The notes under the pieces were generated by a model. It was not told the origin of the DNA and did no database searches. It was given only the letters and a program-made list of their open reading frames with translations. Source: Deltaproteobacteria bacterium (GTDB taxonomy: Bacteria > Myxococcota_A > JAADFL01). Taken from it: 30,085 bases of DNA. Shown here piece by piece: positions 11,659-21,913 of the stretch (position 1 is its first letter; each line of letters begins with the position of its first letter). The stretch spans positions 1-30,085 of the forward strand of contig JAADFL010000090.1 of the NCBI GenBank assembly GCA_013152945.1, given 5' to 3'. Made by a program: the position numbers and the translations under genes.

Positions 11659-12996
11659 TCAACGCCGGGTTGATTTCATTCTTGCTCCTGCAGTCTCTTT
11701 GACCCTGTCCAGCGCAAATTTCAGGGCCACGGGACCTACCACCTGATTAAGGGCTATGGTGGCGATGAGCAAGGTCGCCACCTGCTCTCCCCAACCCGGG
11801 AACCTGGATGAGAGCATCCTGCACAAGCCGATGCTCACTCCGGCCTGTGCGAGGTAGGAAAGTCCAAATGCATTTCCGATCTTGCTTCCCTGACCGGCTG
11901 CAAGGGATGCTGCAAGACTTGCAAGCCAAAGTGACAGTGCCCGGGCTGCAAAGATGACCATGGCCAGCAACCACATGGAGGCAAGAGCTTCGACGTCGAT
12001 AGCGGCGCCGGCCATGCTGAAGAACAGGGCATAGATCGGCAGACTTCCATCTTTAAGAGCTCTCGACAGCCGTACCCCGTGTTCGGACTTGTTTCGTACC
12101 ACCAATCCTGCCACCAGGCATATCAACATGGGTTCCATGTGCAGGGACAATCCTGTTCCTGTCTCCAACCAGGGTGTAGCCAATCTCGCAAACCTGGAGA
12201 CTGCAAATGAAACGCCGAGTAAAGGAATCACCAGGCCGGTCTTTGCCCTGGAAAGGTAACGTATCAATGCCGCGCCGACCAGTGCGCCTGCAATCATGGA
12301 GAGCAGGATTTCGGCACTTGTCGTAACAAGAACAGCGTTTCCACCACCTTGGTCCGGGCCGGAAACCATACTTGCGGTAATGGAAATCATGGCGGCGAAA
12401 ATGAACAGGGCCAGCACATCCGAGGAAATGGTTACGGCCATGACTTGGTCTGTGAACGATCCCCTGGCCCTGGTCTCGCTTATGATACCGATTGCCGAAG
12501 AAGGTGAACGGGCCAGGGCAAGACCGGCTGCGGCAAGGGAACCTGCAAGTACGGCGCCTGAATCCAACCCCAGGTATGCAAGCCCCAAAAAGGCGGTTAT
12601 TCCACTCATCAAGGGCACCAAGATTGTTTGAAAGGCCAGGCTCAGACCTATGGCCTTCCATTGCCCGGCAAGGTCGGCAAAACCGAGTTCGGCTCCTGCC
12701 GCCAATGCAATGACGGCCAAAGCCAGGTCTTCTATCATGGAGAGATCCGCAATCTGTTCGGATGTCACGAATCCAAAGACATGGGGACCCAAGATTGTCC
12801 CGGCCAGGATGTACCCCGTGATTCTCGGAAGTTTTATTGCCGCAAAAACGTCTGACATGAGATATGGCAGCAGCAACAAGAGTGCGAGGACCAATTTTGC
12901 CGGAGCATCCGGAAGTTCCAGGCCCAAAGATGGACCGTACATTGCACCGGTTATAATTCCGGCAAGCAGTAATAGTCCGACGAGCCTGTTCAACAT
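11659..12996 (-). CDS. CPA2-type cation/proton antiporter (second antiporter of the operon)
   Basis: The product is 445 residues and almost entirely hydrophobic, with about 12-13 predicted membrane helices. Na+/H+ exchanger family features include IKLPRITGYILAGTILGPHVFG (residues of about 54-75), the helix-4-like GLALARSPSSAIGII and a helix-5-like TISSDVLALFIF. The latter keeps one Asp at the ion site in a Ser-Asp pair, in place of the Asp-Asp of electrogenic members. A late helix carries YLAQAGVSIGLC. There is no C-terminal TrkA-N or TrkA-C domain, so regulation must come from separate proteins. The start overlaps the previous gene by 7 bases, with AAGGAG 2 bases before the ATG. It is the last gene of a four-gene operon with EIIA-like, PII-like and another antiporter. 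The ion is not predictable. Confidence 0.88.
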   Translation of the reverse strand: MLNRLVGLLLLAGIITGAMYGPSLGLELPDAPAKLVLALLLLLPYLMSDVFAAIKLPRITGYILAGTILGPHVFGFVTSEQIADLSMIEDLALAVIALAAGAELGFADLAGQWKAIGLSLAFQTILVPLMSGITAFLGLAYLGLDSGAVLAGSLAAAGLALARSPSSAIGIISETRARGSFTDQVMAVTISSDVLALFIFAAMISITASMVSGPDQGGGNAVLVTTSAEILLSMIAGALVGAALIRYLSRAKTGLVIPLLGVSFAVSRFARLATPWLETGTGLSLHMEPMLICLVAGLVVRNKSEHGVRLSRALKDGSLPIYALFFSMAGAAIDVEALASMWLLAMVIFAARALSLWLASLAASLAAGQGSKIGNAFGLSYLAQAGVSIGLCRMLSSRFPGWGEQVATLLIATIALNQVVGPVALKFALDRVKETAGARMKSTRR

Positions 12997-14186
12997 TTCT
13001 CCTTGTCGTTAAGGAATATTTTTTGGGCCAGCCTGGTGGCTAATATTTCCTGGACCAGGAAAGCCAGGATTACGAACAGCAACAGGCCGTCGGAGGCAGC
13101 CCCGGGGAAAGCCCGCACCATTGATAATGCCATGGCAAGGGCTACGCCGCCCTGGGGTACCAGAAGGACACCTGCCCTTGTCCGGGTTTTCTCCCGGACC
13201 AAGGCGGAACCGAGCCACACACCCGCAAATTTTCCCGGAATCCTGGATGCCATGTAAACAACAGCCATGAAGATCGGCCATGTCGAGTCCAGCCGGATCG
13301 ATGCGCCTGCCAGGATCAACAGGGCAATGTACATGGGCCTCTCCATTGAAACCATTGCCCTGCGGATCCTTGCGCCGGCCGGCTCCAGGTTGGCCGCCAC
13401 TATTCCTGCCGATGCGTTTACGAGCAATGAGCATATTCCGAACCTGGAACTCACCCCGGCGCTCAATACCACCACGCCCATTATGAAGAGCACGAGTTCG
13501 TCCTGGCTGCACCTGAACCGGGCGAGGATATGCAGTGTCAACCCCAACAGTGCGCCGATGGCAACAGAGCCTGCAACCCAGATCAAGGGTCCGAGCCAGG
13601 ATTGGACTCCTTCGAAGGCCGGTAATCTGCTGGAAAACGGAATACTGAAAACGAATATTGCCAGCAGTCCGTCCAGGCCCGTAACGAAAATGAAGAGATC
13701 GAGGTCCCTGGATCGTTCAAGCACGTTCCTGCAAAATGCCAGGACCGCGGGTGAACTCGTAATGGCAAGCGCAGCCACGGCAAAGGCAAACATCAGGATA
13801 TCGACGGCGGGGAACATGCTCCGAAACAGAGCCAATGCTCCTCCTACAAGGGCGAACACAAGGACGAAGGTCGTTACAGACTGGACCAAGGCAACCTTGA
13901 AAAACCTGGAAGGAAAGATTCGTAGTCTCTTTAGTTCGATGTCTGCTCCACAAAGAAATCCGATTCCACCCAGGACAAGGGCTGACAAAGGAGAGAGCTG
14001 GTTCAATACCTCTTTGTCCAGCAACCCCAGTGCATGGTCTCCCAACAGGATACCGGCCAACAGGAATTCTATGCCGGCGAGCATGAGCCTTTTTTTGTGC
14101 GTGACCTTGCCGAGCCTGCTTATTACCCAATCAGAGCCCCAAATCGCCATGGCCAGGATCAGCAAGAAGGCCAGGAACAACTTCAT
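12990..14186 (-). CDS. CPA2-type cation/proton antiporter-like membrane protein (first antiporter of the operon)
   Basis: The product is 398 residues with about 12 hydrophobic helices. It is related to, but clearly different from, the next gene's product. The N-terminal helix includes DWVISRL, then LAGIEFLLAGILLGDHALG replaces the usual 'PxxxGYxxAGxxxGP' segment. The helix-4-like stretch is ALAITSSPAVLAFCRN. The helix-5-like stretch is FVTGLDGLLAIFVF, with a single Asp preceded by Leu. A late helix has VLLVPQGGVALAMALSMV. The ATG overlaps the PII-like gene's TGA (ATGA, 14183-14186), so translation is coupled. Two unlike antiporters in one operon may form a heterodimer or serve different ions; this is inference. 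No soluble regulatory domain is attached. Confidence 0.82.
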   Translation of the reverse strand: MKLFLAFLLILAMAIWGSDWVISRLGKVTHKKRLMLAGIEFLLAGILLGDHALGLLDKEVLNQLSPLSALVLGGIGFLCGADIELKRLRIFPSRFFKVALVQSVTTFVLVFALVGGALALFRSMFPAVDILMFAFAVAALAITSSPAVLAFCRNVLERSRDLDLFIFVTGLDGLLAIFVFSIPFSSRLPAFEGVQSWLGPLIWVAGSVAIGALLGLTLHILARFRCSQDELVLFIMGVVVLSAGVSSRFGICSLLVNASAGIVAANLEPAGARIRRAMVSMERPMYIALLILAGASIRLDSTWPIFMAVVYMASRIPGKFAGVWLGSALVREKTRTRAGVLLVPQGGVALAMALSMVRAFPGAASDGLLLFVILAFLVQEILATRLAQKIFLNDKEKC

Positions 14187-14536
14187 TGCGTGGTTCCCGG
14201 TCCCATGAAGTCGATAACCGGTAGTGTGAACAAGATGCCGGTTCCTTTTTCTCCAAAATCTCCACAGACCTCGGAGACAAGGGAGGCCGCCTCGTCGACC
14301 TGTTCTTTCAGAAGAACCGACATCAGGACATAGGTCTCCTCTCCTCCCCCGGGGAACATGGACCTGAATCCCGAGAATATGGGCAACTCCAGGCTCACTA
14401 TCTGTCCCATTCCCTTTGCATCGAATACGGTTGCGCCGGGCAATCCAAGTTCCAGGAATCCTTCCAGGACAGACTCGAGCCTGCGATGCCCTTTTATCAT
14501 TGCAATGAGCAACTTTCTTTTCTGTTCAGTACACAT
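14183..14536 (-). CDS. PII-like signalling protein associated with antiporters
   Basis: The product is 117 residues, the size of PII trimer subunits (about 112). PII-type landmarks: the N-terminal strand (KRKLLIAMIKGHRRLESVLEGFLELGLPGATVFDAKG); a long loop of about residues 40-68 at the T-loop position, here Phe/Gly-rich (SGFRSMFPGGGEE); and a C-terminal GEKGTGILFTLPV, comparable to the PII GxxGDGKIFVxPV. The classic uridylylated Tyr region of GlnB is absent, which places it among PII-like proteins linked to transporters, not GlnB/GlnK. Such proteins bind nucleotides and gate membrane transporters; the ligand here is unknown. It overlaps the EIIA-like gene by 11 bases and the antiporter gene by 4. 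GAGGAC precedes the ATG. Confidence 0.82.
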   Translation of the reverse strand: MCTEQKRKLLIAMIKGHRRLESVLEGFLELGLPGATVFDAKGMGQIVSLELPIFSGFRSMFPGGGEETYVLMSVLLKEQVDEAASLVSEVCGDFGEKGTGILFTLPVIDFMGPGTTQ

Positions 14537-15005
14537 GGCTCTTGTCCTCGTTAATCAGAATGTCGAACAATTCCCGCTTCCCGGCCTTACGCAACTTTTC
14601 CTGCATATCCCCATTTGTCAACAGGCGGGCCACTCTGGCAAGTATGCGCAGGTGGATGGTCTCGCCGGATGATGGGCTCAATATCATGACAACCACGTCA
14701 ACAGGAATGCAGTCGTCAGCCGAGAAGTCAATGGGTTGGTCCAGGACGGCGGCCGCGAGTACAGGCCTGTCGATGCCGTCCAGGAGTGCGTGGGGAAGAG
14801 CCAGCCCGAGGCCGAGCCCGGTTGAATGTTCAGACTCGCGCTCCAGCAGGGCCTTGTACACGATGCCCGGTGACAGGCCCTTGTGGAAATTGGACACCTT
14901 TGATGCAAGTTGTCTCAACAGGTCGTTCTTCGATCCGGCTTTGATAGTGCCCTTTCCAAAGACCAGCCCGGGATCCAGGTATTCTGAAAGCATTATCGAA
15001 GGCAT
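14526..15005 (-). CDS. PTS EIIA-Ntr/PtsN-like protein, first gene of the antiporter operon
   Basis: The product is 159 residues, the size of an isolated EIIA(Ntr/fructose) domain. The phosphorylation-site motif STGLGLGLALPHALLDG places the active His at 72. The rest follows the family: VVMILSPSSGETIHLRILARVARLL and a C-terminal LRKAGKRELFDIL. In proteobacteria EIIA-Ntr is known to control K+ uptake systems through protein contact, and EIIA domains are also found fused to CPA antiporters; here it is a separate gene. The ATG at 15005 has GGAGGGG 3 bases upstream. The longer frame to 15218 has no such support. It is translationally overlapped with the PII-like gene. No HPr or EI gene is visible in the window. 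Confidence 0.88.
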   Translation of the reverse strand: MPSIMLSEYLDPGLVFGKGTIKAGSKNDLLRQLASKVSNFHKGLSPGIVYKALLERESEHSTGLGLGLALPHALLDGIDRPVLAAAVLDQPIDFSADDCIPVDVVVMILSPSSGETIHLRILARVARLLTNGDMQEKLRKAGKRELFDILINEDKSHVY

Positions 15006-15233
15006 GTTCCCCTCCAGCAGTTGTTGATGCCGGTATTGACTTAGCGGACAAGATAGCCAAAGAACGATGTTCAGGCAACAGTGCCTGCTTGGGAGGAAAC
15101 AAGGAAGATGTATAATACTTGTGTATACGGTATTGGAGGCATGATAAGTATAAACGCATATATAGTCGACAGAACGTCGTGCAACGAACCGGCGGCCGTC
15201 ACTGGGACTGAACGGCAACCGGGGAGCCGTGAG

Positions 15234-18200
15234 CTAAGGAGTGCTGACCGCAGGCAGCCTGACGACGAACACGGCTCCGCCACCCGGCGCATCCTCAACC
15301 CATATAGATCCCTTGTGCTCCTGCACCAGTGTCCTTGTGATTGCCAGGCCCAGGCCGTGTTCTCCTCCTTTTCCCTTGTAGAATCTCTCAAAGATTATTT
15401 TTTTCTCAGAGTCGTCAACTCCGGGACCCGTGTCCCTGACTCTGATTTCAACCCACCCGGGTTCCCGGTTGTTGGATTTTGGCGTTTCCATCATGCCTGA
15501 ATACCCTTTTTGGGCCTTGCCCGGATGTCCATTCTTGTCATCATCCTTTACCGCGAGACAAGCGATTTGCACGGATTGGCCGTTTCCGGAATACCTTATT
15601 GCATTGGCAACAAGATTTGTAACCACCTGCGAAAGCCTGTCCCTGTCCCCCAATACCTTCGATGCACCCGGTCCCATGTTGAACTCCAAATCAACTCCTT
15701 CGACATCGGCCAAGGGTTTCATGGTCAGAGCGACTTCTTTCAGAAGGCTTTTTATATCGATCTTTTCCTTCTTGTATCTCATGGCCTTCGACTCCAACAA
15801 GGACAGGTCCAATACATCGTGCACGAGCCTGGCCATTCGTTGTACCTCGGTGGAAATGAGCTTAAGGTATTCCCTCTTACGCTGATCCGGTCCGGATGGC
15901 TCCATGAGCAACAGGTCGGTAAATCCTGATATTGCAGTAAGCGGGGTCTTCAATTCATGCGCAATGGTGGCCACTTGTTCCCTGCGCTTGACCTGTTCTT
16001 CGTACAATCGGGCATTCTCGATAGCCACGGCCGCATGTCCAGCCAGTGCCTCGAGCAGTGGCAAGTCCGGACCAACCAAGGTGGCGGCGGGATCCTTTGA
16101 ATCCACGTAGACCAGGCCAATGGGATCTGTAGAGCGGCCGATCAAGGGGACACATGCTACGGACCTCAGTCCGAGCGTCACAACGCTCCGCCTGTACCTG
16201 AAGTTATCCGCCTTGTCCATGTCTGCCACTGTCACAGGCTCCCCGGTTCTGAGCACTTGGTCTACTACGCCTCGTGATACTGCAAAGTCCTCTGGTCCAA
16301 GCGATCGCCCGGCACTGTTCCTGCCGACCCTGAACACGGGCCTGGTGTCATTGTCCAACAGAATGAGGAAACCTTTGTCCGCAGATACCACCTCTATGGT
16401 CTTGTCCACGACCTTTACCAACAAATCATCAAGGTCCAGTATCGGTGCGATCCCCTTTGCAACCTCGATGAGTATCCTGTGGTGTTCCAATTTCCTCGCA
16501 AGGTCCACGCCACCCAAGGTCAGCCTGTGTTCCAGAGCCTTTAGCTCTTCAAGATCGGTTCTGGCGCCAAGGGGTTCCAGTACGCTCCTGGACTTGGACA
16601 TCTCTTCTCTGGCTTCCCGTGCCATTCCAAGATCCGTGAGACACCTTGCCTTTTCAAGCCTCATCCGGGCCGCTTCGTATTCCTCTCCAAGATCTTCTAT
16701 TAACGCCTCGGCCCTTTTAAGTCGTGAGAGACCTGTCTCCGGGTCGCCGAATCTCCTTTCGAGACCTGCGATCAAAACATCTATCCTGGCTTCCTCGTGG
16801 GCAAGGCCCAGCCTTTTTGCCTCTGTATAGGCCTCCTTCAATATGCTCCTGGCGCGTGTCAACCTGCCTGAAATGAGGTGAAGCTCTCCGAACCTTCGTT
16901 TCAGCTCGACCAGTTCATCTTCCGCACCAATCCGGCGAGCCTCTTCTTCAGCCTGTTGATACAACCGGCGGGCCTTTTCCTTGTTTCCCTTTTGGGCCAT
17001 GATGTCACCCAGGTTTCCAAGCAGGGTGGCCCGCATCCTGCTGAAGCCTGTGCGCTCAGCCAACTCCAGGCCGAGGTTCAGGCTTCTCTCCGCCCGGACG
17101 AGATCTCCCCTTTGAGTATAGAGGTAACCGAGGTTGTTGAGAGCATTGACCAGTTCGGATTGTTCTCCCATTTGCCTGCAGGTCCGGGCATGCATTTCCC
17201 ACAGGTCGGCTGCCTCTTTCCACTTGCCCAAGAGGTATTTTGCGATTCCCAGGTTGTTCAATCCCTTGGAGACGGCGGACAATGAACCCATACTCCTGTA
17301 TTCGGTAAGTGCTTCCTGGTACAGCCCTGCGGCGACTTTGAGTTCGCCCCGGAACCTTGCAAGTGTTGCAAGGCCGGTTATCGAATCAGCCTTGCCCTTC
17401 CTGTCTCCAAGGCCGGCAAACATGCGACCGGCCTTTTCGAAGTTTTTTTTCGCTTCTTTGTACTTCGACGTGTACCATCCCAGGTTTCCACGCAGTATGT
17501 GTATCCTGGCAAGGACTTCCGGGATCCCGGCGGCGCTGTTTTCGGCAAGCCCGGCTTCCTTTTCGGCATCCTTGTATCTGCCGAGCATCATGAGACACCA
17601 TCCGGCGGAATAATGCAGCAGGGCTTTGAGCTTTGCATCAAGGGATGGCGATTCCAATCCCTCGCGGCACCACTTCAGGGAATCCGAGTATCTTCCGGCT
17701 TCCTTGTAACCATCGACAAGAATCTTGTATATCCATGGATCTTCATTCTCTTCGGCAAGGGGCAGCAGCAATGCCTCGGCTTGATCGAGCCTACCAAGAT
17801 CCACGGCGATGGTCCCGGCTGTTTTCGATACGTTTCTTTTTTTCAGTTCGCTGTCCGGGATGGTGTCGTGTCCGCGGTCGAGCCAATCGATCACCCTTGT
17901 CAGTATGTCCAGGGCATCCCAACCCGTGCCTGTTGCACGGGCCGAATTTGCAGCCAGGATTCCATGCTCCACGGCCGGACCGAAGTTGCCTGCTTCCGCC
18001 CACCGCGTGGCAATTACCTTTTGGGGGCAGCGTGATTTTTCAAGTGTCCTGGCTGAAGCCCGGAGCATCTTTTTTCTTCTCTTGATGGGAATACCGGCGA
18101 GAATAGCGGTCCTGGCCGTCGAGGTTCGTAATCTCCACCTGGGGCCTATTCTTTGTACAAGGCCCCTTCCCTCCAGGCCGGCCAGGGATGGCAAAAGGAA

Positions 18201-20039
18201 ACCATTGCCTTTGGCCTTAAGCTCACGAAAATAGGCTGTAAGTTCGTTGAGCGTGCATGGATATCCCATGGCTGCAAGCGCCCGGACGACACGCAATTGG
18301 TCCCTGGAAAGGTTGTCAAGGATTTCTGCGGGCAGCCCGGGTTCGACCGGCCAACTTGGCAGGGGTTCATCCGGCGGGGGAAGCATTTCCATGCGTACGT
18401 GCCAAGCCCCGGCCGAACGAATCAATGCTCCTGATTTTTCCAAGCCGCGCAACATTGTTACAGCAGTTGATGCCAAACCATCTGAATCTCTTTGCAGTCT
18501 GTCAGCAAGCAATTGAGCTTCCACTATTTCGCCGAATGTCTTTTCAAGTAACCGGATAGTCTCATTGTGATCAAACCGGTTGATTTTTTTGAGCAGCGTA
18601 TCCGGCTCTGATTGAAGGTCTGCGGCCAGTGAAAGGGCATAGGCATTGTCATTTTTACTGTTCATGGAGATGGCAAGGAAGTACGGGCCCCTGTTCTTCT
18701 TGAATGCGAGGTACCTTAATAGGTGCATGCTGTCTCCTGATGCCATATGCGCATCATCGAGCAACAAGGCAAACGGCCTGATTCGCGCCAATTCATCCAG
18801 GAGACATGAAATGTCATCATAGAATTTATAGACTTGATCTCGCTCGAATATTCCCGCCTCGGAAATAGCCGGGTCTCCCGAAATGAATGACATTGACTGT
18901 TGGTATTTTTCCACCAGCACACTGGCCACGTCCCTGTAACTCGACACCAAGCCATCCAGGATGTCATGAAAAGCAGCCAGCGGTCGATCATCGTTTTCAT
19001 GGAATAATCCCTTGAATACCTTTAATCCGGAAACTTCGATTGTTACGCCGAGCTCATCCAGGAGCCTGGATTTTCCCACCCCGGTCTCGCCGGTAACCAT
19101 GGCGATTCTGGGCACCTTGTCCAAAGCCATCAATGCTGCTTCTTCCAAGTCAGCAAGTTCTTTGGAACGGCCGACAAACCCGGGAAGCAAAGTATAGGTT
19201 TGTTCGATGGCCGTTCCGGCGACCTTGTCGTCTCTTCCAGAGACTTCGTTTAAAGCGGTGAGCACCTCGTCCACAGAGGAGAACCTTGCAGCCGGCTCCT
19301 TTGACATGAGTCCGTATACCACTTCTTCGAGACCGAGCGGCATGTCCGGGCAAAGTAAACGAAGGTCAGGTATTTCTTCGAACAAGGTGGCACGAAGCAC
19401 CTCAATCGGATTGTTCTTATCAAAAGGCGGATTTCCAGTTAAAAGCTCGAATAACAGGACTCCCAGGGAATATAGATCAGCTCTCTTGTCGACAGGACCG
19501 CCACGGATTACCTCGGGAGCCATGTAATGCAACGTGCCTCTCTGTATCAGCTCATCGGAGCCGGCCGGAGCGGCCAGGCTGAAATCCAGCAACTTTACAG
19601 CCGGTTTTTCGGGCCGTGTTGCGTCAACCATTATATTGGAGGGCTTGATGTCGTTGTGAACGAGTCCCCTCGAATGGATATATTGCAATGCCTTGCATAC
19701 ACCTGCCAGTGCGGGAAAGAAGGAAATATGATCAGGGCCTGATATCACCCGGTCAATGGTTTTTCCCGGAGCCAACTCCATTGCCAAGAAGGACCTGCCG
19801 TCAGCCCTGCCCATGTCCAGGATCCTGACCAGGTTCGGGTGGCGCAACCTGGAGAGATGAGCGAACTCCATTTCGAGGTCGTTGTCGGCAGCCTTGTCCA
19901 AGAGTTTCAGGGCTACCGTACGATTCGTTCCCAGGTCGAGCGCCTTGTACACGGTGCTTCGGCCGCCGGATCCAAGCTTTTCGAGTAAGGAGTACCTGCC
20001 GTCAACCTGTTTCAACGCCCCGTGCCTGATTTGTTTCAC
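15234..20039 (-). CDS. Giant Ser/Thr kinase - AAA ATPase - TPR - GAF - histidine kinase
   Basis: The product is 1601 residues, cytoplasmic, with no membrane helix. Residues 17-265 form a Hanks-type kinase with GSGG loop, Lys45, HND (128-130, normally HRD), DFS (152-154, normally DFG) and APE (174-176); catalytic Asp130 and metal Asp152 are kept. Residues of about 285-640 form an AAA/STAND-like ATPase, with P-loop GETGVGKS (317-324) and Walker B LLLDDAH. Residues of about 680-1170 hold ten or more TPR-like helical pairs. A GAF domain (about 1190-1345) precedes HisKA with His1361 (AHELKTPL) and a HATPase with N-box NLVANAIRYS and DTGPG. A Lys/Gly-rich insertion (about 1497-1530) splits the ATPase domain. 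The ATG overlaps the protease stop codon by 4 bases, so the gene is translated with the protease. It is likely a multi-input sensor whose output regulator may be the GGDEF protein. Confidence 0.92.
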   Translation of the reverse strand: MKQIRHGALKQVDGRYSLLEKLGSGGRSTVYKALDLGTNRTVALKLLDKAADNDLEMEFAHLSRLRHPNLVRILDMGRADGRSFLAMELAPGKTIDRVISGPDHISFFPALAGVCKALQYIHSRGLVHNDIKPSNIMVDATRPEKPAVKLLDFSLAAPAGSDELIQRGTLHYMAPEVIRGGPVDKRADLYSLGVLLFELLTGNPPFDKNNPIEVLRATLFEEIPDLRLLCPDMPLGLEEVVYGLMSKEPAARFSSVDEVLTALNEVSGRDDKVAGTAIEQTYTLLPGFVGRSKELADLEEAALMALDKVPRIAMVTGETGVGKSRLLDELGVTIEVSGLKVFKGLFHENDDRPLAAFHDILDGLVSSYRDVASVLVEKYQQSMSFISGDPAISEAGIFERDQVYKFYDDISCLLDELARIRPFALLLDDAHMASGDSMHLLRYLAFKKNRGPYFLAISMNSKNDNAYALSLAADLQSEPDTLLKKINRFDHNETIRLLEKTFGEIVEAQLLADRLQRDSDGLASTAVTMLRGLEKSGALIRSAGAWHVRMEMLPPPDEPLPSWPVEPGLPAEILDNLSRDQLRVVRALAAMGYPCTLNELTAYFRELKAKGNGFLLPSLAGLEGRGLVQRIGPRWRLRTSTARTAILAGIPIKRRKKMLRASARTLEKSRCPQKVIATRWAEAGNFGPAVEHGILAANSARATGTGWDALDILTRVIDWLDRGHDTIPDSELKKRNVSKTAGTIAVDLGRLDQAEALLLPLAEENEDPWIYKILVDGYKEAGRYSDSLKWCREGLESPSLDAKLKALLHYSAGWCLMMLGRYKDAEKEAGLAENSAAGIPEVLARIHILRGNLGWYTSKYKEAKKNFEKAGRMFAGLGDRKGKADSITGLATLARFRGELKVAAGLYQEALTEYRSMGSLSAVSKGLNNLGIAKYLLGKWKEAADLWEMHARTCRQMGEQSELVNALNNLGYLYTQRGDLVRAERSLNLGLELAERTGFSRMRATLLGNLGDIMAQKGNKEKARRLYQQAEEEARRIGAEDELVELKRRFGELHLISGRLTRARSILKEAYTEAKRLGLAHEEARIDVLIAGLERRFGDPETGLSRLKRAEALIEDLGEEYEAARMRLEKARCLTDLGMAREAREEMSKSRSVLEPLGARTDLEELKALEHRLTLGGVDLARKLEHHRILIEVAKGIAPILDLDDLLVKVVDKTIEVVSADKGFLILLDNDTRPVFRVGRNSAGRSLGPEDFAVSRGVVDQVLRTGEPVTVADMDKADNFRYRRSVVTLGLRSVACVPLIGRSTDPIGLVYVDSKDPAATLVGPDLPLLEALAGHAAVAIENARLYEEQVKRREQVATIAHELKTPLTAISGFTDLLLMEPSGPDQRKREYLKLISTEVQRMARLVHDVLDLSLLESKAMRYKKEKIDIKSLLKEVALTMKPLADVEGVDLEFNMGPGASKVLGDRDRLSQVVTNLVANAIRYSGNGQSVQIACLAVKDDDKNGHPGKAQKGYSGMMETPKSNNREPGWVEIRVRDTGPGVDDSEKKIIFERFYKGKGGEHGLGLAITRTLVQEHKGSIWVEDAPGGGAVFVVRLPAVSTP

Positions 20040-21913
20040 TTTTGTACCGGGCTCGTGCCCACGCTTGCATCACGGGCCCCTGCGCCAATAGCCCCATCGA
20101 TGTATGGGTTAAAGGTGGGAAAGCCTGATAGAGAGATGTTGAAGACGAAGCCTACCGGGCTTGTGCCCAGTCCGTCGCCCCCGGCCTTGAAGGACCCGAA
20201 AGAATTATATGCATTGAAGGATGACAGAGACGGTTCGATGTCCAGACCGAAGAAGAACCCTATTCTCTGGAACCAAGAGAGCAATAACCTGTTAAAGAAG
20301 CTTACCAGTCCCTGCGGGCTGGTTCCCAGGCCCGCAGCTTTGGCAGTCTTGTCCACAACAAGACCGATTACAACGTCCGGCGCTGTTATTTGATCCCTGC
20401 CCGGCTTATCCTGTTGATCATCCCATGGCAGAGTCCTCTCGATGACGCATTTTCCCCGGTAGTTGGTTGTACAAGATACATTTTCATACAATTTGCCAAT
20501 AAACCTGCCGAAGATTTTTTCACCGGGCACAGGCCTGCCCCGGCTATTGACCACAGTAATCCCGGCCCTGACAAAGAGACCCTGTTCGCCGTGCAACCTT
20601 CTTGTCTTTACCCGGATTTTGACATAACGCTTGCCGGGAATTTCGATATTTTTGCCGGAGACCATGTCTTGGGCGGCCTGACCTATGTTCAGCAGGCCAT
20701 TACCTGTTTCAAGGTCGAACCCGGGTTCCCCCAGGTCCGATGCCGAGGCATCGAGCCTTGCTGTAATGCTTTTCGGCTCAGCCCCGGCCGATAAAAGCAA
20801 TGCGGCGGAAGCGGAAACATGAGCTGCCGAGGCTGATGTGCCGGAGAGCATCCATGGGGCGGGTTTGCCCGGCATACCCGGCGGGAAGGATTCGCCTATT
20901 ATGCCGTCAGCCATGCCGTCGTTGTTTTCGTCACGGTCGAGATCTCCGCCCGGTGCCAGTATATCCAACCTGGCATCAGATGCGGAGTATTCGGCCCGAA
21001 CAATACCCGTGCTATCGAGCCTTGCAGCGCCGACCGCGATAACCCCCCTGAGTGCGGCCGGGTACAGGACCGGTCCGCCCCAGTCGTTTCCGGCAGCGCC
21101 GACAATCACTACTCCATTGTCGAGTGCTTGTCTCACTGCTTTGACCAGAGCAAGGGAAGGTGTGTAACCCGGGTCGAATGTCAGGGACAGGTTTATCACC
21201 TGTGCGCCATGCTCGACTGCATAGATTATACCCTGGACTATATCGGCCTCGGTGCCTACGGCATCCTTGTCAAGGACCCTGACAGGCATTATGGATACTC
21301 CGGGAGATATACCTGCGCCCGAGTCCGAGTACCTGGAATCCCGGGCAATTATACTTGTTACAAGCGTTCCATGTCCGTTTTCGTCCAGGGGCTCCCGGTC
21401 GCCATCCACAAAATCCATGGGCGCAACAAAGTCGGTGCCGGCCAATCCCGGTGGAACTCTGTAAGCCTCGTCATCAGTATCAAGGTATGAAACGCCTGTA
21501 TCCAGGACTCCGACAACGACGCCGCTTCCATCGCCGACAAGTTCCCATGCCTTTTCGACGCCGATTGCCTGCAGGTTCCATTGGTACGGATAGAGGTCGC
21601 CGTTCTCTACTGACGCCGCCCTGCAAATGGCATTGGCGGATGCTTGTAAAACATCCTTATCCTGGGAGAGGCGTTTCAGCAGGCCGTTCGTGTCTCCATC
21701 ATGCGAGTGGAGACGCAAAACACCGGCAGGTCCCCTGAACGGAACCAGCCATGCGCGGGACCGTTCGAGGAGCTTTTCGAGGTGCTTGGTGTCCAGAGGT
21801 TTCTTCAGTGTGACCAGGGCCTCGCCTCTTGCCGCGCCGGGCCATGCCTGCACTTGGCCGGAAAGTGAAAACGTGATTGCAGACAGTACAACCCAGAGAT
21901 TACGCATCTTCAT
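20036..21913 (-). CDS. Secreted subtilisin-like (S8) serine protease with GTSP-repeat tail
   Basis: The product is 625 residues. The signal peptide MKMRNLWVVLSAITFSLSGQVQA is followed by a propeptide-like region (about 30-95) and an S8 catalytic domain (about 115-420). The triad is visible: Asp in GVLDTGVSY, His in NGHGTLVTS and Ser in SGTSASAAHVS, with the oxyanion Asn in GAAGNDWGG. An Asp-rich loop (DLDRDENNDGMADG) looks like a calcium site. The last 200 residues are a beta-type domain with a Cys pair (CTTNYRGKC). They end in a tail with three GTSP motifs: GLGTSPQG, GLGTSPVG and SVGTSPVQK. AGGAGG is 5 bases before the ATG. The gene overlaps the GGDEF gene by 14 bases and the hybrid kinase gene by 4, which is unusual company for an exported protease. 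Confidence 0.92.
   Translation of the reverse strand: MKMRNLWVVLSAITFSLSGQVQAWPGAARGEALVTLKKPLDTKHLEKLLERSRAWLVPFRGPAGVLRLHSHDGDTNGLLKRLSQDKDVLQASANAICRAASVENGDLYPYQWNLQAIGVEKAWELVGDGSGVVVGVLDTGVSYLDTDDEAYRVPPGLAGTDFVAPMDFVDGDREPLDENGHGTLVTSIIARDSRYSDSGAGISPGVSIMPVRVLDKDAVGTEADIVQGIIYAVEHGAQVINLSLTFDPGYTPSLALVKAVRQALDNGVVIVGAAGNDWGGPVLYPAALRGVIAVGAARLDSTGIVRAEYSASDARLDILAPGGDLDRDENNDGMADGIIGESFPPGMPGKPAPWMLSGTSASAAHVSASAALLLSAGAEPKSITARLDASASDLGEPGFDLETGNGLLNIGQAAQDMVSGKNIEIPGKRYVKIRVKTRRLHGEQGLFVRAGITVVNSRGRPVPGEKIFGRFIGKLYENVSCTTNYRGKCVIERTLPWDDQQDKPGRDQITAPDVVIGLVVDKTAKAAGLGTSPQGLVSFFNRLLLSWFQRIGFFFGLDIEPSLSSFNAYNSFGSFKAGGDGLGTSPVGFVFNISLSGFPTFNPYIDGAIGAGARDASVGTSPVQK

Follow-up and report, generated by a model that had tools for sequence, protein, structure and literature searches.

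The antiporters of the cation/proton antiporter (CPA) fold that are known so far are homodimers, and in bacteria they are usually regulated through RCK domains. CPA2 antiporters under the control of a small protein from the same operon are represented by KhtTU, with the RCK-C protein KhtT, and KefFC, with the oxidoreductase KefF, and GlnK with AmtB represents the PII-type transporter regulators. In Escherichia coli, PtsN that is not phosphorylated binds to YcgO, a K+/H+ antiporter, and inhibits it (PMC11808508), and the PII-type protein SbtB is reported to bind the transporter SbtA (PMC8352866). The present analysis concerns a minus-strand block of four overlapping genes at positions 11,659 to 15,005 of a 30,085-nucleotide stretch (hereafter the window, meaning the whole of this DNA) of contig JAADFL010000090.1 from the Deltaproteobacteria bacterium assembly GCA_013152945.1. 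The block encodes, in order, an EIIA protein, a PII-like protein, and two membrane proteins, designated C and D, with predicted CPA folds. It is judged somewhat probable that these products form one regulated exchanger, with D as the catalytic and C as a non-catalytic subunit, which would probably perform electroneutral K+ (or Na+)/H+ antiport and would be gated by EIIA phosphorylation together with a PII-type ligand. The observations behind this reading are gene linkage, gene fusion, predicted fold, and the conservation or loss of particular residues.

The locus is like PtsN-YcgO in that an EIIA of the same Pfam family acts there on a CPA antiporter in a manner that depends on phosphorylation, and EI and HPr are encoded in the window's genome. 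It is unlike that system in that YcgO is a single polypeptide that carries a cytoplasmic RCK/CorC region of its own and has no PII-like protein linked to it, whereas the C-D pair of the window is without such domains, and in that another, better-scoring EIIA sits near EI and HPr in the same genome. What SbtB-SbtA and GlnK-AmtB have in common with the window is a membrane transporter accompanied in the genome by a small protein of PII fold, which would be expected to gate it through its loop, but the window has another class of transporter, another loop (E-x-PIF[AS]G-x-R), and an EIIA partner, to which the PII-like domain is fused in some relatives. An antiporter with a small regulator from the same operon is also the arrangement of KhtTU and KefFC, in which, unlike the window, there is neither a PII-like or EIIA regulator nor a second CPA subunit. 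NapA, NhaP, and KefC have the fold predicted for both C and D, and KefC Asp156 is the equivalent of NapA Asp157 (PMC11150392), hence of D Asp193; in contrast to these homodimers, the window would have two unlike subunits, with catalytic residues unequally kept and no RCK domain.

Linkage of the four families was assessed with a context-blind scan, in which the PII-like family alone was run against one genome for each of 84,980 species and the DNA around the 25 loci obtained was scored with profiles of all four families. EIIA was adjacent at 17 of the 25 loci and a CPA antiporter at 13, so that the association of EIIA, PII-like protein, and CPA antiporter is far above chance, and an accidental arrangement in one genome was ruled out by the same scan. 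A first-pass annotation of the window, made from the DNA letters alone, had suggested a neighborhood search on the expectation that conserved order across lineages would support a system. The colinear order EIIA-PII-C-D was indeed recovered in several phyla, including Planctomycetota (L014, Phycisphaera), Thermodesulfobacteriota (L033, Syntrophobacteria), and Acidobacteriota (L029, L030, and L032), and also in L026. In a relative from the same phylum (L008/L013), EIIA-PII and C-D are two convergent operons that meet tail to tail. The genomic linkage of the four families is strong.

Two genomes of the same phylum, G308 (L075) and G174 (L076), encode EIIA and the PII-like protein as a single fusion, whose gene immediately precedes C. 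The family profiles recognize both domains of these proteins (9.9e-15 and 1.3e-16 for the PII part), and both fusions keep the EIIA PH motif and the loop signature EVPLF-[AS]-GFRD. These fusions are the strongest evidence that the EIIA and PII-like domains may act jointly. The PII-like family was also found beside a single CPA antiporter, with EIIA in L028, L034, L036, and L071 and without it in L027, L031, and L035; these single antiporters have an ordinary DD motif in 7/7 cases and the Lys in 6/7. The PII-like family is therefore a repeated partner of CPA antiporters. The EIIA and PII-like genes, side by side or joined into one, make up a unit of their own that accompanies either C-D or a lone CPA antiporter of the DD type.

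Subunit D (11659..12996, minus strand, 445 amino acids) matched PF00999 (Na_H_Exchanger) with 63.5 bits against a cut-off of 26.2 (E 2e-17). For subunit C (12990..14186, minus strand, 398 amino acids) no Pfam family was found at E 0.1, and a sequence match in the PDB was sought and none found; its CPA membership rests on the predicted fold and on profile similarity to D (hhalign, 99.9%). The AlphaFold2 models had a predicted local distance difference test (pLDDT) value of 83.8 and a predicted template modeling score (pTM) of 0.86 for C, and a pLDDT of 81.9 and pTM of 0.81 for D. The C model was nearest to MjNhaP1 (4czb; Z 34.8, root mean square deviation (rmsd) 3.7, 375 aligned), with which several other NhaP/SLC9-type structures tie, and the D model was nearest to NapA (4bwz; Z 34.7, rmsd 3.9, 376 aligned), which was clearly first. 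By these models, C and D are both CPA-fold membrane proteins. Neither contains a TrkA-N or TrkA-C domain detectable with Pfam, in agreement with the first-pass annotation; TrkA-type proteins are also encoded in the source genome.

At the ion site, D Asp193 aligns with NapA Asp157, the residue of transmembrane helix 5 that is essential for ion binding, and this Asp is kept in 35/35 D sequences. The first Asp of the DD motif and the Lys, both found in electrogenic CPA2 antiporters of the NhaA/NapA type, are missing from D, which has Ser192 and Leu356 at those positions; across the 35 D sequences, the first position is never acidic and the position of NapA Lys305 is never Lys. Masrati et al. (PMC6181914) give Asp at position 7 for 94% of CPAs, and under their rules electroneutral exchange is to be expected of CPA2 proteins that have no acidic residue at position 6. 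Since D has no acid at position 6, one cation per proton is expected by these rules, and exchange by D is probably electroneutral. The register between the two subunits was set by hhalign, in which C Asp172 corresponds to D Ser192 and C Gly173 to D Asp193, and a MAFFT alignment that includes NapA agrees. The contrast drawn earlier between a Ser-Asp ion site in D and a Leu-Asp ion site in C was out of register, and the equation of these two motifs was ruled out. C thus keeps Asp at the first position and Lys at the position of NapA Lys305 (Lys in 27/33 C sequences), and Gly173 replaces the essential Asp. The essential Asp is lost in 10/15 C members from genomes having this module, and the Acidobacteria C proteins are shortened, with the entire motif stretch gone. 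Because C has lost the essential Asp in the window and D keeps Asp193, D is predicted to be the sole ion-carrying subunit there and C to be non-catalytic. The earlier description of the pair as two unlike CPA antiporters is therefore retained as to fold and dissimilarity and revised as to C, which is no ordinary second antiporter. Degeneracy of one antiporter had been named beforehand as a finding that would speak against a joint system; C has indeed lost its essential Asp, but because C is retained beside D across phyla, the loss is taken to favor a non-catalytic partner.

The EIIA protein (14526..15005, minus strand, 159 amino acids, ATG at 15005) matched PF00359 (PTS_EIIA_2) with 97.3 bits against a cut-off of 27 (E 1e-27). 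The phosphorylatable His72 predicted by the first-pass annotation lies within a LALPH motif and is invariant in 16/16 homologs. The protein is below the PtsN equivalog cut-off (TIGR01419, 76.4 bits vs 138.7), and none of the four proteins scored above an NCBIfam equivalog cut-off. A second EIIA with a better score is encoded elsewhere in the same genome (contig C57), close to HPr and EI genes. Since EI and HPr are available there, a phosphorelay to His72 is possible, and the two proteins could phosphorylate the window's EIIA.

The PII-like protein (14183..14536, minus strand, 117 amino acids) scored 20.7 bits against PF00543 as a single sequence (E 5e-4), below the gathering score of 25 bits, and its family profile matched solved PII proteins (best 9.7e-6). 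The GlnB/GlnK T-loop Tyr51 uridylylation motif was not found in 23 aligned rows of the family read by eye, in which the loop reads E-x-PIF[AS]G-x-R. No match to PF00543 at E 0.001 was found anywhere in the source genome, which is 94% complete, and the family was matched in 13/14 control genomes. Because no canonical PII protein reaches threshold there, the window's PII-like protein may be the only PII-type sensor of the genome. Among the other gene contexts of the family, read by eye, a gene resembling a VKOR-DsbA fusion adjoins the PII-like gene in L016, L017, L020, and L025, which have neither EIIA nor antiporter beside it; among L018, L019, L021, L022, and L023, EIIA-PII is followed by a hisS-like gene in several and preceded by a CNNM/CorC-like membrane protein in some.

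The C-D pair is far broader than the regulatory genes. D-type and related antiporter genes were found at E 1e-40 or better in 172/377 same-phylum genomes, the weaker matches including ordinary single antiporters, and the PII-like family was matched in only 26 of the 377. Most C-D pairs examined in the wider phylum are without the EIIA-PII cassette, which is not a universal part of C-D systems. The dual-input antiport module envisaged in the first-pass annotation is thus borne out as a conserved linkage of EIIA, PII-like protein, and C-D, and limited by the lack of EIIA-PII at most C-D pairs of the wider phylum. In about 31 of the loci read, the gene immediately upstream of D on its strand is C, and in at least 18 of these the two overlap by exactly 4 bases. 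In a quick tree, C and D formed separate clades with Shimodaira-Hasegawa-like approximate likelihood ratio test support of 99 and 100, and the two clades branch in broadly the same way; C evolves faster than D. Their distance matrices are correlated (r = 0.51, with 0/5000 permutations as high). C and D form a pair of ancient origin whose genes are nearly always neighbors, which is what a heteromer would lead one to expect.

Other membrane components were seen near C or C-D in relatives. A protein of 413-497 amino acids with 6-7 transmembrane helices is encoded directly upstream of C-D in L139, L142, L145, and L158, and an MscS beta-domain was found in the two of these proteins scanned with Pfam, those of L139 and L142, where the C-D pair has no EIIA-PII. 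In L156:1538-4158, a C-type protein gene overlaps a TrkA gene and is divergent from a separate C-D pair, from which C-type proteins may also work with TrkA. In L150 (1150-9828), a C-type protein, TrkA, and TrkH are followed by a 1504-amino-acid D fusion, so that TrkA/TrkH separate C from D. These Trk and MscS neighbors favor a K+ or osmotic role for the pair, to judge from gene context. The long C-terminal part of the L150 fusion has only a weak AAA_16 match, and D matches lie in similarly long open frames in many same-phylum genomes.

Several results weigh against a single C-D exchanger under EIIA and PII-like control, and they are taken here together with the explanations that would accommodate them. 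The AlphaFold2 models are of single chains only. D was found without an adjacent C in three loci (L151, L153, and L157), and the correlation of the C and D distances partly reflects shared organism history. In most C-D pairs without EIIA/PII, C retains DD or DE, so loss of the Asp is not universal and C may be active in such pairs. C and D could be separate antiporters, each a homodimer, with a common operon and common regulators but different ions or pH ranges. The full CPA fold of both proteins would suit this explanation, as would the intact motifs just described, the D genes that have no adjacent C, and the C-type proteins that occur apart from D, beside TrkA (L150, L156). However, the C of the window is without the essential Asp and the Acidobacteria C proteins are without the whole stretch, and C is nearly always directly upstream of D, with trees that agree in outline; two separate homodimers are therefore considered rather unlikely.

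A further point against the proposed exchanger comes from genomes in which EIIA-PII has no antiporter nearby (in L015, PII alone). Eight of these were searched whole, and no D was found in L012 or L024, in which EIIA-PII is present. Six of the eight, some of KSB1 or Deferribacteres type, carry C-D on another contig, and the lack of a neighboring antiporter was accordingly rejected as an argument against the link for these six, in which D has C beside it, and not for L012 and L024. EIIA and the PII-like protein might act chiefly on other targets, such as general PTS-Ntr output, with the link to C-D being one of co-regulated expression instead of gating. Such an arrangement would fit L012 and L024, the distance between EIIA-PII and C-D in the KSB1- and Deferribacteres-type genomes, and the PII-like genes that stand alone beside other genes (L016, L017, L020, L025). 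It is at odds with the EIIA::PII fusions directly upstream of C, with the occurrence of the PII-like family beside single DD-type CPA antiporters whether or not EIIA is present, and with the presence of C-D in the same genome in 6/8 split cases, and we regard it as unlikely.

The remaining points against the exchanger concern the substrate. D Arg163 (window 12508-12510) lies in broken helix 4, where NapA has Thr; the equivalents of this residue in D proteins are mostly R/K/N/Q (A-R/K/N/Q-S-P), and such residues are unusual next to a site for cations. In many relatives, the first Asp position is occupied by Lys, which also does not yet fit. These residues could indicate that C-D no longer exchanges cations for protons and instead transports or senses an anion or a weak acid, or acts on no substrate, a view to which the missing Asp of the window's C could be added, together with the resemblance of the D model to the CPA-like sensor LYCHOS. 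That resemblance is weaker (Z about 24) than the match to NapA, which is clearly first at Z 34.7; the essential Asp is kept in every D sequence, and the Trk and MscS neighbors in relatives fit ion and osmotic balance. A departure from cation exchange is considered quite improbable.

Returning to the regulated exchanger, we infer the heterodimer, the ion, the stoichiometry, the contacts, and the direction of control as follows. D and C would come together in a heterodimer (or a mixed dimer). D would move one cation, with K+ favored, against one proton, and C would be its static partner, giving the dimer its shape and a surface for docking. EIIA would bind or release C-D according to its phosphorylation state, set by the phosphoenolpyruvate (PEP) relay, and a PII-like trimer would do so according to its bound small ligand, both acting on C-D from its cytoplasmic side. 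Two metabolic signals would in this way gate the flux of ions and the pH of the cytoplasm. In a wider sense, the window may represent a widespread class of two-subunit CPA antiporters, each with a catalytic subunit and a paralog that has become a pseudo-antiporter in some lineages, and with one branch gated by EIIA and PII-like domains, fused or paired, in which the PEP phosphorelay and a small-molecule signal are brought together; this generalization is held to be about evenly balanced between being right and wrong.

The four-gene set is a real, conserved, and apparently undescribed variant of antiporter system. No description of the EIIA/PII-like/C-D set was found in the open-licence literature on PII-like or EIIA proteins encoded with antiporters and on heteromeric CPA antiporters, an absence that is weak evidence. 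A paper on a Borrelia PII-like protein (PMC6516651) deals with a DUF2179 membrane protein that is unrelated. If the reading is correct, a C-D pair in which one subunit is without the ion-binding residue would mean that the fold can specialize into catalytic and non-catalytic subunits, and the EIIA/PII-like pair, which is in some cases a single protein, would connect carbon and nitrogen status directly to ion and pH homeostasis. A likely function would also be obtained for a family of PII-like proteins and for many C genes that are invisible to Pfam.

With regard to the layout of the locus, the overlaps of 11, 4, and 7 bases between the successive genes, as given in the first-pass annotation, were exact on an open reading frame check. 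Upstream of the EIIA gene lies a gap of 228 bases (15006..15233, minus strand), the probable site of the operon promoter, where a promoter scan produced a weak promoter-like match on the minus strand (15169-15141) that was no better than chance. A convergent gene follows 19 bases downstream of the set. Because of this gap and the convergent gene, the transcription unit probably comprises just EIIA, PII-like, C, and D. The upstream neighbor (window 15234-20039, minus strand) encodes a 1601-amino-acid protein with Ser/Thr kinase, AAA_16, TPR, GAF, HisKA, and HATPase domains, and window 20036-21913 (minus strand) encodes a 625-amino-acid subtilase that comes closest to the mycosin family in NCBIfam, with a score below cut-off.

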